NCBI GenBank assembly: GCA_017308375.1 | Contig: JAFKEW010000050.1 | Span: forward strand, 1-64,000 | From: Alphaproteobacteria bacterium | GTDB lineage: Bacteria > Pseudomonadota > Alphaproteobacteria > Micropepsales > Micropepsaceae | Length of the DNA: 64,000 nucleotides | Direction of reading: 5' to 3' | In this document: positions 41,456-56,422 of the stretch, piece after piece | How positions within the stretch are numbered: the stretch's first letter is position 1 | Layout: every line of letters starts with the position of its first letter | Position numbers and translations under genes: made by a program | The notes under the pieces: model-generated | Database searches by the model: none | What the model was told of the DNA's origin: nothing | What the model saw: the letters and a program-made list of their open reading frames with translations, nothing else

Positions 41456-41469
41456 TTGATGCTGATCAA
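41456..41469. promoter_or_regulatory. FixK/FNR-type box, cytochrome b promoter
   Basis: TTGATGCTGATCAA is an exact TTGA-N6-TCAA. The centre is about 60 bases upstream of the cytochrome start at 41403. Confidence 0.65.
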
Positions 41470-41626: not shown

Positions 41627-42889
41627 TCATCCCATGGCAATGGACCAGCCGAACAGCAGCACAGTCACTGCCATTAGCATGGCTGCGATCCAGCCCAGCA
41701 CCAGAAGCCATGCCGGAAGTCCGTAAGATCGCCGGCCATGTTCACTCGACACGATCACCACCGTTGCGAACATAATCGGGACCGCAACCACGCCGTTTAT
41801 GACGGCGGCCCAAAAGAGCATCGCTATGGGGTCAATATTGCTTGCGGCCAGAAGTGCGCCACCCAATGTTGCCGCGCTGATGATGCCGTAAAATCCAATG
41901 GCGCGATTGGCTGGCAGTTCCAGGCTACCACGCAAACCGAAAGCTTCCGACACCGCATAGGCCGCCGATCCGGCAAGCACAGGAACGGCCAGTAATCCGG
42001 TGCCGATGATGCCCGCTGCAAACAATGCGAAGGTGAATTCGCCTGCTATGGGGCGGAGAGATTCCGCTGCCTGGGAAGCGGTGTTGATCTTTGTTATCCC
42101 GTGTGAATGCAGGGTTGCAGCCGTCGTCACAACGATGAACCAGGCAACGATATTCGAAAGAAGCATGCCGGACCATGTGTCTATCGAGATATGGCGGAAT
42201 GCACCTTTCGAAAGGGTCTGTGTGCCATGCTTCCGCTTATGACTAAGCCATGATTCCTCCGCCTCTTGGGAAGCTTGCCAGAAAAACAGATATGGACTGA
42301 TGGTGGTCCCAAAGATGGCCACAACAGTGAGCAGAAGGTCCTTGTCGAGCGATACTGTCGGAACGACGGTATCGCGAAGAACTTGAGGCCATGGGATCGA
42401 GACTGTGAATGCTGCCGCAACATAGGCAAATAGAACCATTGTCAGCAGCTTCAAATAGCCCGCATAGCGATGATATGGAACGAACACTTCAATCACGAGA
42501 CAGGTTAGTCCGAACGCCACCGCATATCCAACCGCGGGACCACCAAGGACGAGACGTAAAGAATCGCCCATCGCTGCAAGATCGGCCGCAATATTGATGG
42601 TATTGGCGGTAACCAAAAATCCCACAAGTCCGTACATGACGGACTTCGGAAGCTGTGCTGCAATATTGCGAGACAGTCCGCTCTGTGCGCTCCACCCGAT
42701 GCAGGCGCTGATGATCTGAATGGCCGCCATAAACGGCAGCGTCAGCAGCAAGGTCCAGGTGAGCGCGTATCCGAACTGTGCTCCGGCCTGTGAGTATGTG
42801 GCAATCCCGCTCGGATCGTCGTCAGCGGCACCGGTGGTCAGACCAGGGCCAAATATCCGCCACGTTCGCTTAAGTGCCGAGCCCAGCAT
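41627..42889 (-). CDS. Nramp-like metal transporter
   Basis: A 420-residue protein with about eleven membrane segments. TM1 has GAADDDPSGIATYSQAGAQF (the DPGN position is DPSG), and the position where classic Nramp proteins have the MPH motif reads GTTISPYLFFWQASQ. So it is a divergent branch that lacks the Met ligand usual for manganese and iron, and the substrate may differ (Mg is one option). The downstream C-terminus is duplicated as a decayed copy at 23931-24290. A 32-residue membrane peptide gene and the alcohol dehydrogenase gene lie upstream on the same strand. Confidence 0.82.
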   Translation of the reverse strand: MLGSALKRTWRIFGPGLTTGAADDDPSGIATYSQAGAQFGYALTWTLLLTLPFMAAIQIISACIGWSAQSGLSRNIAAQLPKSVMYGLVGFLVTANTINIAADLAAMGDSLRLVLGGPAVGYAVAFGLTCLVIEVFVPYHRYAGYLKLLTMVLFAYVAAAFTVSIPWPQVLRDTVVPTVSLDKDLLLTVVAIFGTTISPYLFFWQASQEAEESWLSHKRKHGTQTLSKGAFRHISIDTWSGMLLSNIVAWFIVVTTAATLHSHGITKINTASQAAESLRPIAGEFTFALFAAGIIGTGLLAVPVLAGSAAYAVSEAFGLRGSLELPANRAIGFYGIISAATLGGALLAASNIDPIAMLFWAAVINGVVAVPIMFATVVIVSSEHGRRSYGLPAWLLVLGWIAAMLMAVTVLLFGWSIAMG

Positions 42890-44228: not shown

Positions 44229-44242
44229 TTGATTGAAATCAA
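44229..44242. promoter_or_regulatory. FixK/FNR-type box, universal stress protein promoter
   Basis: TTGATTGAAATCAA is an exact TTGA-N6-TCAA, centred 66 bases upstream of the universal stress protein start at 44302. With the box at 44156 each divergent gene has its own site. Confidence 0.65.
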
Positions 44243-44301: not shown

Positions 44302-45165
44302 ATGACTTTCCACCATATTCTCGTTCCGTTGAATGGAAGTGATCGCGATGCGGTCGCGCTCGAAACCGCCTTTGTGCTTGCGCCACAATTCGGCGCACAT
44401 GTTTCGGCCCTTCTGGTGCGGCCGGATACACGGGCCGTAATGCCGATCATTGGCATTTCGCTTTTTCCGGACGTGATCGCTGACATCGCGAATTCGGCAA
44501 AGCAGGCGGCGGACCGGGCAGCAGGAATTGCCCGGGATACCTTTTCCGCGATCGCGGCCAGGGCCGGGATGACGGTGGTGGAACGGCCCGAAAGGAGAGA
44601 CACGGCGACTACCTCGTTTGAGGAGGTTGAAGGCTTCTTCTTCGATTGTGTTTCCCGAGCCGCGCGCTTTGCCGATCTGGTGGCGTTCGGGTCGCTGGGC
44701 GAGCCGACGGATTATCAACTGTCAGCGGGTTTCTCGGATGTTTTGATGGCTGTGGGGCGGCCCGTTCTGGTCAGTCCGAAACCTCTGGTGCGGTTACCGG
44801 AAAAAGTGGTCATCGGATGGGACGGCCGTTACGCGGCAGCGCGGGCTGTCTGCATGGCGCTTCCGTTGCTGGCACAGGCCAAGGAGGTCGTGGCCATCAC
44901 AGCCCGCCATCCGCGCCGTGACCTGCCCAGCCTGGAGGGGCTGCAGGGGTATCTGGCATTGTCCGGCATCCGCGTGACGGAAAGCATTGTGGAAAGAGGA
45001 GAGAGATCTACCGGTGAGGCGCTGTTCGATGCCGCGGGCAATGCCGGGGCTGAACTGGTAGTAATGGGTGGGTATAGCCGCAGCCCGTTGCGCGAAGCGC
45101 TTCTGGGCGGCACCACGGCCTATGCTGTTGAGGAGGCGTCACTCCCCGTTTTTCTTATGCATTGA
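44302..45165 (+). CDS. Universal stress protein, tandem UspA domains
   Basis: A 287-residue protein of two UspA folds. The N-terminal domain begins ILVPLNGSDRDAVALE; the second begins near residue 167 (KVVIGWDGRYAAARAV) and ends with the ATP-binding type motif VMGGYSRSPLREALLGGTT. Proteins of this class are commonly induced by hypoxia and stress. The exact FixK box upstream supports that here. Its end overlaps the end of the kinase gene by 11 bases (convergent). Confidence 0.9.
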   Translation: MTFHHILVPLNGSDRDAVALETAFVLAPQFGAHVSALLVRPDTRAVMPIIGISLFPDVIADIANSAKQAADRAAGIARDTFSAIAARAGMTVVERPERRDTATTSFEEVEGFFFDCVSRAARFADLVAFGSLGEPTDYQLSAGFSDVLMAVGRPVLVSPKPLVRLPEKVVIGWDGRYAAARAVCMALPLLAQAKEVVAITARHPRRDLPSLEGLQGYLALSGIRVTESIVERGERSTGEALFDAAGNAGAELVVMGGYSRSPLREALLGGTTAYAVEEASLPVFLMH

Positions 45166-50676: not shown

Positions 50677-51357
50677 TTACTCCTCTCCCGTTGTCATGGT
50701 TTCGAGACTGTTCACGTCTTTGATGACGATTCTGTGCCGGCTGGGAATGTCTATGACATGCGCCCGGCGTAATTCGCTTAATGAGCGGCACACTGTTTCG
50801 ATGGTCAGACAGAGATGGTCCGCGATGTCTTGCCGGCTCATGGGCAAATCAATGGTGTGCGGATGGCCTGCAGAAAGCCGCCGGATCATGGACATCAAGA
50901 AAGCTGCTACCCGCGCCCGCGCTTCTGGATGGCCCAATATGACGACATGCGCTTGTGCGGCTGAAAGGTCGCGCCGAAGTGCGTCTACGATATTGTCGTG
51001 GAACTCCGTTTGTTCCTGTTGCATGGGAGGGCAGCGGCGCGTGCGCAGAAGAACGGTCGGTCCAATGGTTTCTGCCGTCACTTTATGGTGTGCGTCCAAT
51101 TCCAAGCCGAATTGGTCGTCCTTGAATGCGAAGTCGGTGATCAGGCGACGCCCGCCCGGTAAAATCTTGCAGAGGCGAACCGCCCCAGCCATGACCCGAT
51201 AGAGGCTTTGGGCGTCGTCACCCTCCATGAACACAGTCTCGTGCGTTGCGAGGCGAACGATGCTGCCAATGGTTTGGGAGGTGGGCGAACGATCTATCGG
51301 CTGCCTTATGGGCGGGATGAAGTTTTCCGTCATTACAGCACGGGGCGTCGAGATCAT
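50677..51357 (-). CDS. FixK-like Crp/Fnr regulator
   Basis: A 226-residue protein with a cyclic-nucleotide-like beta-roll and C-terminal winged helix. The recognition helix reads HLCLTIETVCRSLSEL: Glu and Arg contacts of the FNR class are present, so a TTGA-type site is expected. There is no N-terminal Cys cluster, so it is FixK-like and does not sense oxygen itself. Cys190, next to the recognition residues, is placed as the redox-sensitive Cys183 of Bradyrhizobium FixK2. A FixJ-type site is 75 bases upstream. Start 51357 has GAGG 7 bases before; 51333 is possible. Confidence 0.85.
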   Translation of the reverse strand: MISTPRAVMTENFIPPIRQPIDRSPTSQTIGSIVRLATHETVFMEGDDAQSLYRVMAGAVRLCKILPGGRRLITDFAFKDDQFGLELDAHHKVTAETIGPTVLLRTRRCPPMQQEQTEFHDNIVDALRRDLSAAQAHVVILGHPEARARVAAFLMSMIRRLSAGHPHTIDLPMSRQDIADHLCLTIETVCRSLSELRRAHVIDIPSRHRIVIKDVNSLETMTTGEE

Positions 51358-51430: not shown

Positions 51431-51448
51431 CTAAGTAGATTTGCTTAG
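51431..51448. promoter_or_regulatory. FixJ-type site upstream of the FixK-like gene
   Basis: CTAAGTAGATTTGCTTAG is an imperfect inverted repeat (CTAAG / CTTAG) about 75 bases before the FixK-like start. It resembles FixJ-binding sequences with TAAGTA and TTA half-sites. The identity is inferred from memory of such sites, not from a matrix. The rest of 51358-51540 has no gene. Confidence 0.45.
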
Positions 51449-51540: not shown

Positions 51541-51960
51541 TTATTTTGCGTGAGCGCGTCCGATGTGGTTGATCCAGGATAGTAGTTCGTCGTGTTGGAT
51601 AGGCTTGATTAGGAATGCCACAACACCCGCGCGCCGGATGCGATCCGCAAGTGTGGAGGCTGGTCGTTCAGCTATCAGGATAACGGGGGTTGCGATGCCC
51701 TGTGCGTGTAGGCGCTCCACAAGCTCTAACCCCGTGACATCCGGTATCTGCTGATCAACCACCAGGCACGATAGGTGCGGGCAGAGTGGCGATTCGAGCA
51801 ATGCCGTCGCGGATTCAAACTCATCCGCCAAGAATCCGTGGACTTCCAGAAGCATGCGTGTTGAATGCCGCACAGCGCTGTCACTATCAACGATGCCAAT
51901 CCGGTCTGGCACTGATTTCTCATACTCCCAGTCAATTCCTGGATCGCGCTGAGCCGACAT
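51541..51960 (-). CDS. Single-domain receiver, degenerate (FixT-like candidate)
   Basis: A 139-residue receiver domain with no output domain. The acidic pair (VDSD), phosphoacceptor Asp69 (CLVVDQQIPD) and Lys119 (FLIKP) are present, but Ala97 (VILIAERP) replaces the conserved Thr/Ser, so switching would be weak. Two Cys lie close together (SPLCPHLSC). The gene follows fixJ and has a FixK-type box 28-41 bases upstream. FixT, the feedback inhibitor of FixL, is also a single receiver-like protein under FixK control. The comparison is inference. Confidence 0.8.
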   Translation of the reverse strand: MSAQRDPGIDWEYEKSVPDRIGIVDSDSAVRHSTRMLLEVHGFLADEFESATALLESPLCPHLSCLVVDQQIPDVTGLELVERLHAQGIATPVILIAERPASTLADRIRRAGVVAFLIKPIQHDELLSWINHIGRAHAK

Positions 51961-51987
51961 CTTCGCGCTGATGCGGAGATCCGCACA

Positions 51988-52001
51988 TTGATCTGACGCA
52001 A
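51988..52001. promoter_or_regulatory. FixK-type box (variant), receiver promoter
   Basis: TTGATCTGACGCAA fits TTG(A/C)-N6-(T/G)CAA. It lies in the short gap between the fixJ stop and the receiver start, centred about 35 bases upstream of that start. Confidence 0.5.
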
Positions 52002-52023: not shown

Positions 52024-52635
52024 TTACGTGGGCGCAGATCGTGCCGACAGCACCATCCGTACCAGATCGGCAAGATTGTCGGCGCGCATCTTTTCCATAA
52101 CGTGGGCGCGATGGATATCCACAGTCCGGGGCGAAATCTCGAGAATTCTTGCGATTTCTTTCGTGGTTTTGCCTTCGACCACGAGATCAAGAACTTCCTT
52201 TTCCCGTATGGTGAGAGCCGTGAGCCGTGCTGTGATGTTCCGGTCAACGCCCGTGCGATGCATGTTCCGCAGCCGCATCCCCTTGCGAATGCAATCCAGC
52301 AGAGTTTCTTCCCGGAAGGGTTTTTCCAGGAAATCAATGGCGCCTGCCCGCATGGCGCGCACAGCCAGCGGTACGTCGCCATGGCCGGTGATGATGATGA
52401 CGGGTAACCCAAGGTTACGACGGTGAAGTTCGTCTTGAAGCTGTAACCCATCCATATCCGGCATGCGGATATCGACCACAAGGCACCCGTCCATCCCATG
52501 GATATCCGCTGACAGGAATTTCAGGGCCGACTCGAATGTCTCAACCTTGAAACCTGAAATTTCCAGAAGGATCTGAAGCGAATTGCGGACGTCGGCATCA
52601 TCGTCCACCACATAGACCGTGCCCGCGTTTGTCAT
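52024..52635 (-). CDS. fixJ: FixJ response regulator
   Basis: A 203-residue LuxR-type regulator. Receiver residues are complete: VVDDDADV, phosphoacceptor Asp55 (CLVVDIRMPD), Thr (IIITGHGDVP) and Lys (FLEKPF). The output HTH is ALTIREKEVLDLVVEGKTTK, followed by IARILEISPRTVDIHR, as in FixJ. It would be phosphorylated by FixL and activate the FixK-like gene. The start MTNAGTVYVVDDDAD at 52635 overlaps fixL by 4 bases. Confidence 0.92.
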   Translation of the reverse strand: MTNAGTVYVVDDDADVRNSLQILLEISGFKVETFESALKFLSADIHGMDGCLVVDIRMPDMDGLQLQDELHRRNLGLPVIIITGHGDVPLAVRAMRAGAIDFLEKPFREETLLDCIRKGMRLRNMHRTGVDRNITARLTALTIREKEVLDLVVEGKTTKEIARILEISPRTVDIHRAHVMEKMRADNLADLVRMVLSARSAPT

Positions 52636-53771
52636 GGGGCCGGTTCTGGTGCCGGTACCGGCAGGCGCAGAATGAAGGTCGCGCCTTCTTCGCTGTTTGC
52701 TGCCAGCCATAGCCGCCCGCCATGTGCTTCCGCGATTTTGCGGCAGATGCTCAGCCCCATGCCCATGCCATGAGCCTTGGTGGTGACGAAGGGGTGAAAC
52801 AGGCGGCTTTCGACCTCTGCGGGAATTCCCGTGCCGGTGTCGGCGACGGCGATTTCGACAGCATCGCCATTCTTGTGCGTCGTGATGGTCACTGCGCCGC
52901 GGGGAAGGCCGCTTGTGGCTTCGACGGCATTGCGAATCAAATTGACCAGAATTTGCTGGATCTGAACCTTGTCGATCAACAGGGCCGGCAAACCGGGCTC
53001 CAACCCCAATCGCCGCTTGATGTCACCACCCCGCATGCCGGCGAGACCCAGTTCGACCGCCTCTTCCACGGCCTTGTTGATGTCCTCCGGCGCACGAATG
53101 GACTCCCGTTTTTCAATAAAGTTGCGCAGGCGCCGGATAATAAGACCCGCGCGCTCAGCTTGTTCAGCGATGCGATCGAGTACTTCGGCCAATTTGGCTG
53201 CCGGCTCACCAAGGTGTCCCGTCATATGCCGGGCTGCGCCCGTATAGTTCAGAAGAGCCGTCAACGGCTGGTTCAACTCATGCGCCAATGCTGATGCCAT
53301 CTCACCCATCAGGGTCATTCGCGTCACGTGGAGAAGTTCGCCTTGCAGTTCCCGGATGCGGTTGTCGCGGGCGCGTGTTTCCGACATATCGTTGATGATG
53401 CCAACGAAAATGCGGCTGCCTTTCAGCATCCCTTCGCCGACCGACAGATACATCGGGAACGTCGTACCATCCCTGCGCTGGCCGACGACCTCGCGACCGA
53501 TACCGATAATATGCGGGATTTGTGTTTCCAGATACCGCGCCAGATAGGCATCATGCTGACTGCGGTAGGGTTCCGGCATCAGCATGTTTATGTTGCAGTC
53601 CAATACCTCTTCGGGGGCATATCCAAAGAGCCGTTCACAGGCCGGGCTGAAGACTTGGACAATGCCTTGCTCATTGATGACGACAATACCGTCGATTGCC
53701 GTATTGATCAGGGCGTGGAAAAGCGCGTCCTCATCGGCTGCTTGGGCGATTGTTCTTCCCGCTTCCTGCAT
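52632..53771 (-). CDS. fixL: FixL oxygen-sensing histidine kinase
   Basis: A 379-residue soluble kinase with no membrane segment. The heme PAS domain (residues 20-130) has HDAYLARYLETQIPHIIGIG then R: His73, Arg79, His87 and Arg93 keep the spacing of heme ligand His200 and Arg206, His214, Arg220 in Bradyrhizobium FixL. So heme binding and oxygen sensing are strongly expected. The kinase His is 164 (ASALAHELNQPL) and the ATP site has NLIRNAVEA, DTGTGIP and GMGLSI. It is the first gene of fixL-fixJ. An inverted repeat TTGTC-N11-GACAA lies just upstream (53798-53818). Confidence 0.93.
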   Translation of the reverse strand: MQEAGRTIAQAADEDALFHALINTAIDGIVVINEQGIVQVFSPACERLFGYAPEEVLDCNINMLMPEPYRSQHDAYLARYLETQIPHIIGIGREVVGQRRDGTTFPMYLSVGEGMLKGSRIFVGIINDMSETRARDNRIRELQGELLHVTRMTLMGEMASALAHELNQPLTALLNYTGAARHMTGHLGEPAAKLAEVLDRIAEQAERAGLIIRRLRNFIEKRESIRAPEDINKAVEEAVELGLAGMRGGDIKRRLGLEPGLPALLIDKVQIQQILVNLIRNAVEATSGLPRGAVTITTHKNGDAVEIAVADTGTGIPAEVESRLFHPFVTTKAHGMGMGLSICRKIAEAHGGRLWLAANSEEGATFILRLPVPAPEPAP

Positions 53772-54157: not shown

Positions 54158-56422
54158 TTATCGCGCAGCGGTGGGTTTTCTCCAGAGCGAGAGATAGCCC
54201 CAGCCCATGGCCAGTGCGAGAGGCAAGGCACCCGCAAACATGAACACGAGGTCGCCCGGCATGCGCAGCCATTCAAGCGTGCGGGCCAAGGGAGTGGCGG
54301 TATAGGTCAACCCGCGCGCATGCCAATAGCCGTGTTCGACCACATCGAGGACCTGCAGAACCCCACCTGGAAACAGACTCAGAAAGACCATCATGGCAAG
54401 GCCGATATTCAGGCCCCAGAAGGCTACCCGCACCAGTCCGGCAAGCTTTTGCCAAACCTCTTCGCGCACAACTTCGCGTAGGACGAACACCATCAAACCA
54501 GCACCTAGCATACCGAACACGCCCATCATGGCGGCATGGCCATGATTTGGCGTGAGGATGGTGCCGACTTCGTAATAGCTGACGATCGGTGTGTTGATCA
54601 GGAAGCCGAACACACCGGCGCCCAGGAAATTCCAAAAGCCTACCGCCATCAGGAAATAGAATGTCCAGCGATGTCGGTTGACGACGTTGTCGCTACCGCG
54701 CGTGACCCTTACGAAATCCCACGCATCAAGCGTGATTAAGGTCAACGGCACGACTTCCAAGGCGGAAAACGTGGCGGAAAGTGCCATGTTCATTTCAGTC
54801 TGCCCGGTCCAGTACCAATGATGGCCAGTGCCGATCAGCCCGCCGCCAAAATAAAGAATAGCATCGAGATAGATGGTCCGCAGCGCCGTAATCCGCCGCA
54901 CCAGACCCATACGATAGAAAATAACGGCGACGATGACAGTGACAAAGAACTCGAAGAAGCCTTCGACCCAGAGATGAATGATCCAGAAGCGCCAAGCATC
55001 GACGATCGTGTAATTGGTCTGTGAGCCGTAGAAGAGTGCCGGCAGATAAAACAATGGAATGGCGAAAGCCGCGATGAGGAAGAAGTTCGCGAAGCCGCGA
55101 CGTTCCGGATCGCGCCGTGCGGGGGCGATCGCGCGCCACACCAAGAAGAACCAGAACAACAGTCCGATAGCGAGCAGGATTTGCCAGAAGCGCCCAAGCT
55201 CCAGATATTCCCATCCCTGATCGCCGAACCAGAACCAGGTCTTCGGCAACCATTGCAGAATGCCAGCCCATTCGCCGAACATGCTGCCGATAATGACAAT
55301 GGCGACGGCGCTGAACAGCAAATGAATACCTAGTCGCTGACGCGGCGGGCTTGCACGGCCTAGTAATTCGGCCACAAACAATGCGCCCGCGACGTAAGAT
55401 GTAGCGATCCAGAAAATCGCAGATTGCAAATGCCAGGTTCGCAACAGATTGCTGGGGAACCAGGCCGCCAAATCTAACCCATAGAACGTGCCCGGATCGG
55501 CCCGGTAATGCGCGATGCCCGCACCAAAGAAGGTCTGCCCCAGAAGCAGAATTGATGCGACCGCCATGTATTTGAGCGTCGCCTTTTGGGAGGGGCTCAG
55601 AACCCATGGTTCGGCCGGCGTTGGCGCGCCATGCCAGCCAAGATAATCGAACTTGCCGAAGGCCAGCAAAACGATGGCGATGCCACCCAGCAGGAAAACG
55701 AAACTGATGGCCGTCCACAAAAGTGCGGCGCCCGTGGGATGATTGCCAGCGAGCGGGTCATAGGGAAAATTGTTCGTATAGGAATGCGCCGTTCCCGGCC
55801 TTTGGGCAACAGAGCCCCAGGCCGCCCAGGTGAAGAAGGCGGTAAGATCGTGCAGCTCTTTCGGATCGGTAATGAGGTTAGCCGCTAAGCCGCCATTGAG
55901 CGCCGGATTCTGGAAGTAGGTTTTCCAGCGGTCCACCTCGTTTGCGAATGTCTGCGCGCCCGCCGGCAGAAGCGTCAACGTACCCGTACCGGAATCGTAA
56001 CGATTGGTTTTCAACAGGCTTGCAACTTCGCCATCAACAGCGGCACGTTGTTCGCCCGAAAGCGTCCCATAGTCTTTTGCAAAACGGGCCCGCGCGCGGG
56101 CCTGCGCCAGGTCGAGTGCCCAATGATGCAGCACGGCCGCGCCGAAATCAGGCCCCAGGTAGCCGCCGTGGCCCCAGATGGTGCCATTGTCCATCAAGCC
56201 ATATTTGAGAAACACCTCCTGCCCGGCACGAATGTCGTCGCCGGTGAAAACGACGTGACCCGCTGTATCAACTGCGCGTTCAGGTATGGGAGGCGCATTT
56301 TGGTAGGCCTTGAAGGTCAGAAGAAGCAAAACGCCCAGGCCGAAAACAAACACGACAAGGACGGCACGAGCCCACCACGGGGAGAGTTGCTCAATCGGCT
56401 CGGGTGATTCTACGGTTGTCAT
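54158..56422 (-). CDS. norZ: Quinol-dependent nitric oxide reductase (qNor)
   Basis: A 754-residue membrane protein with the single-chain qNor layout: an N-terminal extension replacing NorC (residues 20-220, with GQEVFLKYGLMDNGTIWGHG), then a heme-copper oxidase core of about 12 segments. Heme and iron ligand His residues occur in LRTWHLQSAIFWIATSY, IHLWVEGFFEFF, GTGHHWYWTGQTEM and TPNHGHAAMMGVF. It reduces NO to N2O with electrons from quinol, as detoxification or respiration. The start at 56422 has GGGGGCGT before it. No obvious NO-regulator box is seen upstream. Confidence 0.93.
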   Translation of the reverse strand: MTTVESPEPIEQLSPWWARAVLVVFVFGLGVLLLLTFKAYQNAPPIPERAVDTAGHVVFTGDDIRAGQEVFLKYGLMDNGTIWGHGGYLGPDFGAAVLHHWALDLAQARARARFAKDYGTLSGEQRAAVDGEVASLLKTNRYDSGTGTLTLLPAGAQTFANEVDRWKTYFQNPALNGGLAANLITDPKELHDLTAFFTWAAWGSVAQRPGTAHSYTNNFPYDPLAGNHPTGAALLWTAISFVFLLGGIAIVLLAFGKFDYLGWHGAPTPAEPWVLSPSQKATLKYMAVASILLLGQTFFGAGIAHYRADPGTFYGLDLAAWFPSNLLRTWHLQSAIFWIATSYVAGALFVAELLGRASPPRQRLGIHLLFSAVAIVIIGSMFGEWAGILQWLPKTWFWFGDQGWEYLELGRFWQILLAIGLLFWFFLVWRAIAPARRDPERRGFANFFLIAAFAIPLFYLPALFYGSQTNYTIVDAWRFWIIHLWVEGFFEFFVTVIVAVIFYRMGLVRRITALRTIYLDAILYFGGGLIGTGHHWYWTGQTEMNMALSATFSALEVVPLTLITLDAWDFVRVTRGSDNVVNRHRWTFYFLMAVGFWNFLGAGVFGFLINTPIVSYYEVGTILTPNHGHAAMMGVFGMLGAGLMVFVLREVVREEVWQKLAGLVRVAFWGLNIGLAMMVFLSLFPGGVLQVLDVVEHGYWHARGLTYTATPLARTLEWLRMPGDLVFMFAGALPLALAMGWGYLSLWRKPTAAR

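Follow-up and report, generated by a model that had tools for sequence, protein, structure and literature searches.

The gene that lies between fixJ and fixK in the window (the whole stretch of 64,000 nucleotides analyzed here) appears to encode a FixT-type antikinase, a brake on the oxygen-sensor kinase FixL, and from the sequence we put the probability of this reading at roughly two in three. Under low oxygen, the heme-PAS kinase FixL would phosphorylate FixJ, phosphorylated FixJ would turn on fixK through the box in front of it, and FixK would in turn switch on the receiver gene through the box in the fixJ-receiver gap (Table 1). The receiver would then dock with its α1 face on the dimerization helices of FixL, a site also used by FixJ, and lower FixL autophosphorylation, which would make the response self-limiting. 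This reading builds on gene order, the two boxes, an altered active site, membership in a group of fixJ-adjacent receivers, and an α1 helix that resembles that of the neighboring FixJ.

Table 1. Features of the fixL-fixJ-receiver-fixK locus in the window.
Feature	Position	Strand	Remarks
fixK-type CRP/FNR regulator	50677..51357	(-)	nearest solved relative FixK2 (4i2o)
FixJ-type box TAAGTAGATTTGCTTA 5' of fixK	51432..51447	(.)	2 mismatches against the S. meliloti-derived pattern
single-domain receiver, FixT-type (candidate)	51541..51960	(-)	ORF from ATG 51960, 139 aa; likely start GTG 51912, 123 aa
FixK-type box TTGCGTCAGATCAA (coding-strand reading), near-palindromic	51988..52001	(-)	fixJ-receiver gap
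fixJ response regulator: receiver + LuxR-type HTH	52024..52635	(-)	all phosphorylation residues intact
fixL oxygen-sensor kinase: heme-PAS with RSxHDxY histidine, HisKA, HATPase	52632..53771	(-)	domain matches

On the minus strand the genes run in the order fixL, fixJ, receiver gene, and fixK-type CRP/FNR gene, and the FixT-like placement proposed in the original prediction thereby holds, for the annotated fixT of Sinorhizobium meliloti pSymA sits between fixJ and fixK in the same way (fixL-fixJ-fixT-fixK). The same order is found for the fixT relatives of S. garamanticum and S. fredii, and the receiver of Methylobacterium currus likewise lies between fixJ and fixK. Judged by its sequence, FixL of the window is a heme-PAS kinase, as its PAS domain aligns with the crystal structures of Bradyrhizobium japonicum FixL through RSxHDxY, PHIIGIGR and beyond; the histidine of RSxHDxY is the heme ligand of FixL. 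Directly upstream of fixL stands a gene for nitric oxide reductase (NorB with a cytochrome c-like domain, 54158-56422 on the minus strand). The recognition helix of the window FixK (ETVCRSLS) carries Cys190, which aligns with position 183 of FixK2 from B. diazoefficiens, a redox-sensitive cysteine there (the FixK2 crystal is of the C183S form), and a cysteine at the equivalent position is also present in FixK of four other loci (L054, L074, L075, and L094).

As had been predicted, the open reading frame next to fixJ encodes a lone receiver (residues 22-130, matched by Pfam Response_reg at E 4.8e-16), and its predicted fold is intact (pLDDT 84). Among NCBIfam models FixJ comes nearest (E 7.9e-21), matched over the N-terminal half only and far under the cut-off, and no FixT family was named for the protein by the Pfam and NCBIfam scans. 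Its phosphoacceptor Asp69 and Lys119 are present and Ala97 occupies the Thr/Ser position, in agreement with the original prediction. In addition, the acidic pair, canonically Asp-Asp, reads Asp25-Ser26, a loss of the second acidic residue that the prediction did not mention, and with two catalytic positions altered (Ser26 and Ala97) the canonical phospho-accepting set of Asp-Asp pair, Asp, Thr/Ser, and Lys is incomplete. Loss of the second acidic residue and loss of Thr/Ser are each expected to slow receiver phosphorylation. Because both have been lost, the window receiver is probably a poor phosphate acceptor, if it is one at all, and would act by binding rather than as a phosphate sink.

The retention of Asp69 and Lys119, on the other hand, weakens the antikinase reading and speaks for an alternative, an unlikely one, in which the protein is a competing receiver that takes phosphate from phosphorylated FixL and drains the signal from FixJ. 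A complete phosphorylation site is found in most of its relatives, and with an α1 helix like that of FixJ the protein could accept phosphate from FixL; however, Ser26 and Ala97 of the window receiver stand against this, and FixT blocks FixL autophosphorylation without being phosphorylated or serving as a sink (PMC7078487), its non-phosphorylation having been linked to the loss of the acidic pair (PMC9430884).

The start of the receiver likely lies downstream of the first ATG. ATG 51960 is only 34 bases downstream of the center of the FixK-type box, and a FixK promoter with its box at -41.5 would place the start of transcription inside the frame that begins there. The distance from box to start is 61-64 in most box-bearing relatives and 82 in S. 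meliloti fixT, and GTG 51912 gives the window a distance of 82, equal to the latter. The M. currus relative starts exactly at window residue 17, and residues 1-15 are of low confidence in the structure model and predicted to be disordered. Box spacing, the M. currus start, and the disordered N-terminus thus make GTG 51912 (123 aa) the likelier true start, with ATG 51960 probably too far upstream.

A FixK-type box had been noted just before the receiver gene, and the fixJ-receiver gap indeed carries TTGATCTGACGCAA, which is TTGCGTCAGATCAA on the coding strand and perfectly matches the published FixK2 consensus TTG(A/C)-N6-(T/G)CAA (PMC9104804). Over the whole window, matches to this consensus are near chance (9 vs. 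5.6 expected), and since the window count alone proves little, the corresponding gaps were compared across 39 loci, of which 16 carry a perfect box, compared to 0.5 expected from dinucleotide-preserving shuffles. Annotated fixT relatives of Sinorhizobium are among these 16, the box in this gap of S. meliloti fixT and its relatives in S. garamanticum and S. fredii being TTGATCTCGCGCAA. By inspection of the sequence, no clear -10 element was seen at the expected distance from the window box, which weakens the antikinase reading, as does the presence of a single receiver straight after fixJ in only 20 of the 45 FixL loci of a class-level sample (loci picked by FixL alone). The palindrome TTGAT-N4-ATCAA was tried as a FixK pattern and rejected, as the box departs from it at 2 positions and its sites in the window are at chance (27 vs. 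20). Two perfect FNR/FixK palindromes occur elsewhere in the window, TTGATGCTGATCAA at 41456-41469 near an Nramp transporter gene (41627-42889, minus strand) and TTGATTGAAATCAA at 44229-44242 immediately ahead of the gene for a universal stress protein (44302-45165, plus strand).

A second box, the FixJ-type TAAGTAGATTTGCTTA, stands before the window fixK in the same place as TAAGTAGTTCCCCTTA in S. meliloti (the FixJ site sequence behind the pattern is given in PMC4999443). With a putative FixK-type box before the receiver gene and a putative FixJ-type box before fixK, a chain leading from FixL through FixJ and fixK to the receiver would be written in the DNA, and the wiring of the predicted negative feedback loop within one locus is borne out to that extent. 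In four loci of the same genus (L056, L064, L065, and L070), the gap before the receiver lacks a FixK box but contains FixJ-like motifs, TACGTAGAAATTACGGA in L056 being one, which may reflect direct control of the receiver by FixJ there. A link between the FixK box and a degenerate active site was also considered, at first with p 0.0009, but it weakened when boxes that overlap the fixJ stop codon were included (8/16 vs. 2/22, p 0.008; 7/14 vs. 2/19, p 0.02 after thinning; phylogeny uncorrected) and is not relied on.

If receiver and FixJ share FixL as their kinase, their kinase-facing residues should change together across loci, and this is the premise of the docking test. Helix α1 of the receiver is closer to that of the FixJ from its own locus than to that of other FixJs (z 5.1 in 35 loci, z 5.3 in 31 thinned loci), a cognate score that none of 4000 permutations reached, whereas the rest of the domain gives z 0.4-0.8. 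Sliding windows of 15 residues place the cognate-FixJ peak at α1 and nowhere else, and the signal persists within the nine degenerate receivers, that of the window included (z 3.1, p 0.0007). For α1 of the window receiver, the window FixJ ranks 1 of 31, although it also comes first for the remainder of the domain. Across the loci the cognate match is thus a feature of α1, the kinase-docking face, and not of the remaining domain, so docking of the receiver on FixL, the kinase that FixJ also uses, is probable. Shared ancestry alone should not give such a pattern, because the paralog groups apparently split before the loci did; gene conversion limited to α1 is possible but far-fetched. Covariation between receiver α1 and FixL points to a size-matching pair, the only one quoted here as the columns come from 30 loci only and lack phylogenetic control: in the receiver, the position 11 residues beyond the first Asp, occupied by Met36 in the window, is strongly matched to the FixL residue 10 after the His, with Phe at the former found only where the latter is small (14/14 Phe receivers vs. 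3/16 others) and Ala only where it is large. By our mapping, this α1 face was also the target of rewiring in structures 4ja2 and 4jav of HK853-RR468.

The α1 signal speaks for docking and not for its outcome, and would equally suit an adaptor or output receiver that binds FixL or FixJ and, rather than simply inhibiting, passes the signal on to another partner or brings in a second signal from one. Protein contacts are a common mode of single receivers, and S. meliloti FixT needs asnO (PMC7078487); nevertheless, FixT proteins, the only characterized ones of this kind, are inhibitors, and control through a FixK box fits feedback best, making an adaptor rather improbable.

In a maximum-likelihood tree, a single branch with support 98/98 divides 35 fixJ-adjacent receivers from 25 FixJ receiver domains. 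Named FixT falls on the receiver side of this branch, in a tree that is unrooted and in which the FixT branches are long, and the receivers as a whole sit on longer branches than FixJ. A single origin of the fixJ-adjacent receivers is the simplest reading of this tree, not proof. The protein can be called FixT-like in that it lies on the same side of this branch as named FixT, but the likeness does not extend to pairwise similarity: BLASTP gave no match between the window receiver and S. meliloti FixT, and the two are about 25% identical in the multiple alignment. This weakens the antikinase reading, though FixT of Caulobacter crescentus and FixT of S. meliloti, the two species whose FixT has been studied biochemically, share only 21.5% identity (PMC7078487). 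A direct scan of genome contigs returned three receivers only, from distant organisms. The fixT frame of S. meliloti strain R28 (L009 6873-7112) is shortened to 79 aa, compared to 115 aa in ABS7. Among 38 scorable receivers, 28 keep the acidic residue, Asp, Thr/Ser, and Lys, and inhibition without phosphorylation is therefore not plainly the common mode of the group. As a tentative scenario, which we hold to be doubtful, the receivers between fixJ and fixK could form an old and widespread alphaproteobacterial family of FixL-docking proteins with S. meliloti FixT at one extreme, in which most members, having a complete site, may be phosphate-tuned brakes, while the window protein and other degenerate ones would have separately become independent of phosphate.

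The two close cysteines noted in the original prediction are Cys60 and Cys65, just before Asp69, and their Cys-x4-Cys spacing equals that of C59 and C64 in Caulobacter FixT, of which C64 matters for inhibition (PMC7078487); the spacing also recurs in S. meliloti FixT. On this likeness the window protein might be an iron-sulfur or redox-sensing receiver of the Caulobacter kind, an iron-sulfur cluster being a possibility that the prediction had also raised, but the four-Cys motif is largely confined to Caulobacter and reported absent from FixT outside it (PMC7078487), and the window receiver has two cysteines only. Moreover, Cys65 is a general feature of FixJ-type receivers: all 39 receivers have it, as do 60 of 66 FixJ proteins. 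Cys60 is unconserved, being found in only 2 of the 39 receivers. By sequence there is thus no case for an iron-sulfur cluster, and such a sensor is very unlikely, although a disulfide, or a cluster bridging two subunits, may exist. Hardly credible is a decaying FixJ-type duplicate without function, in spite of two lost catalytic positions and branches longer than those of FixJ, given the open frame, the intact predicted fold, the retained Asp, Lys, and Cys65, the kept control box, and an α1 still matched to its own FixJ.

The antikinase reading places the window protein among regulators of a type already known; what is new is comparative, namely how widely the box occurs, the α1 match, and the non-degenerate state of most members. 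With FixT biochemistry drawn from two species, a set of some 39 receivers next to fixJ that share a box and whose α1 tracks their own FixJ provides a comparative frame for the passage from receiver to kinase inhibitor, and names docking residues for mutation. Among the nearest known proteins are RPA4249 of Rhodopseudomonas palustris, called a FixT homolog in a FixLJ model (PMC13327599), and Bll2758 of B. diazoefficiens, whose response-regulator gene was cloned along with fixJ and fixK2 (PMC9104804) and whose product is among the microoxia-responsive proteins (PMC6515984); the sequences of both were not identified among the loci compared, and no published activity was found for either in the literature searched.

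Like the window protein, S. meliloti FixT (CP073679 pSymA, L048) is a single receiver with the same gene order, a FixK-type box in the same gap, a damaged acidic pair, Asp and Lys kept, and Cys-x4-Cys before the Asp, but both of its acidic residues are gone, compared to one in the window, and Val instead of Ala replaces Thr/Ser. C. crescentus FixT is likewise a single receiver in a FixLJ system, and its C64 would be the counterpart of Cys65, as judged from the published description; it differs in its four-Cys iron-sulfur motif (PMC7078487). Osp of Rhodobacter sphaeroides is a single receiver without acidic residues that is unphosphorylated and inhibits a kinase in a feedback loop, its target being CckA, not FixL (PMC9430884). 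By analogy with FixT and Osp, the window receiver most likely serves as a feedback brake that docks on FixL and inhibits its autophosphorylation.
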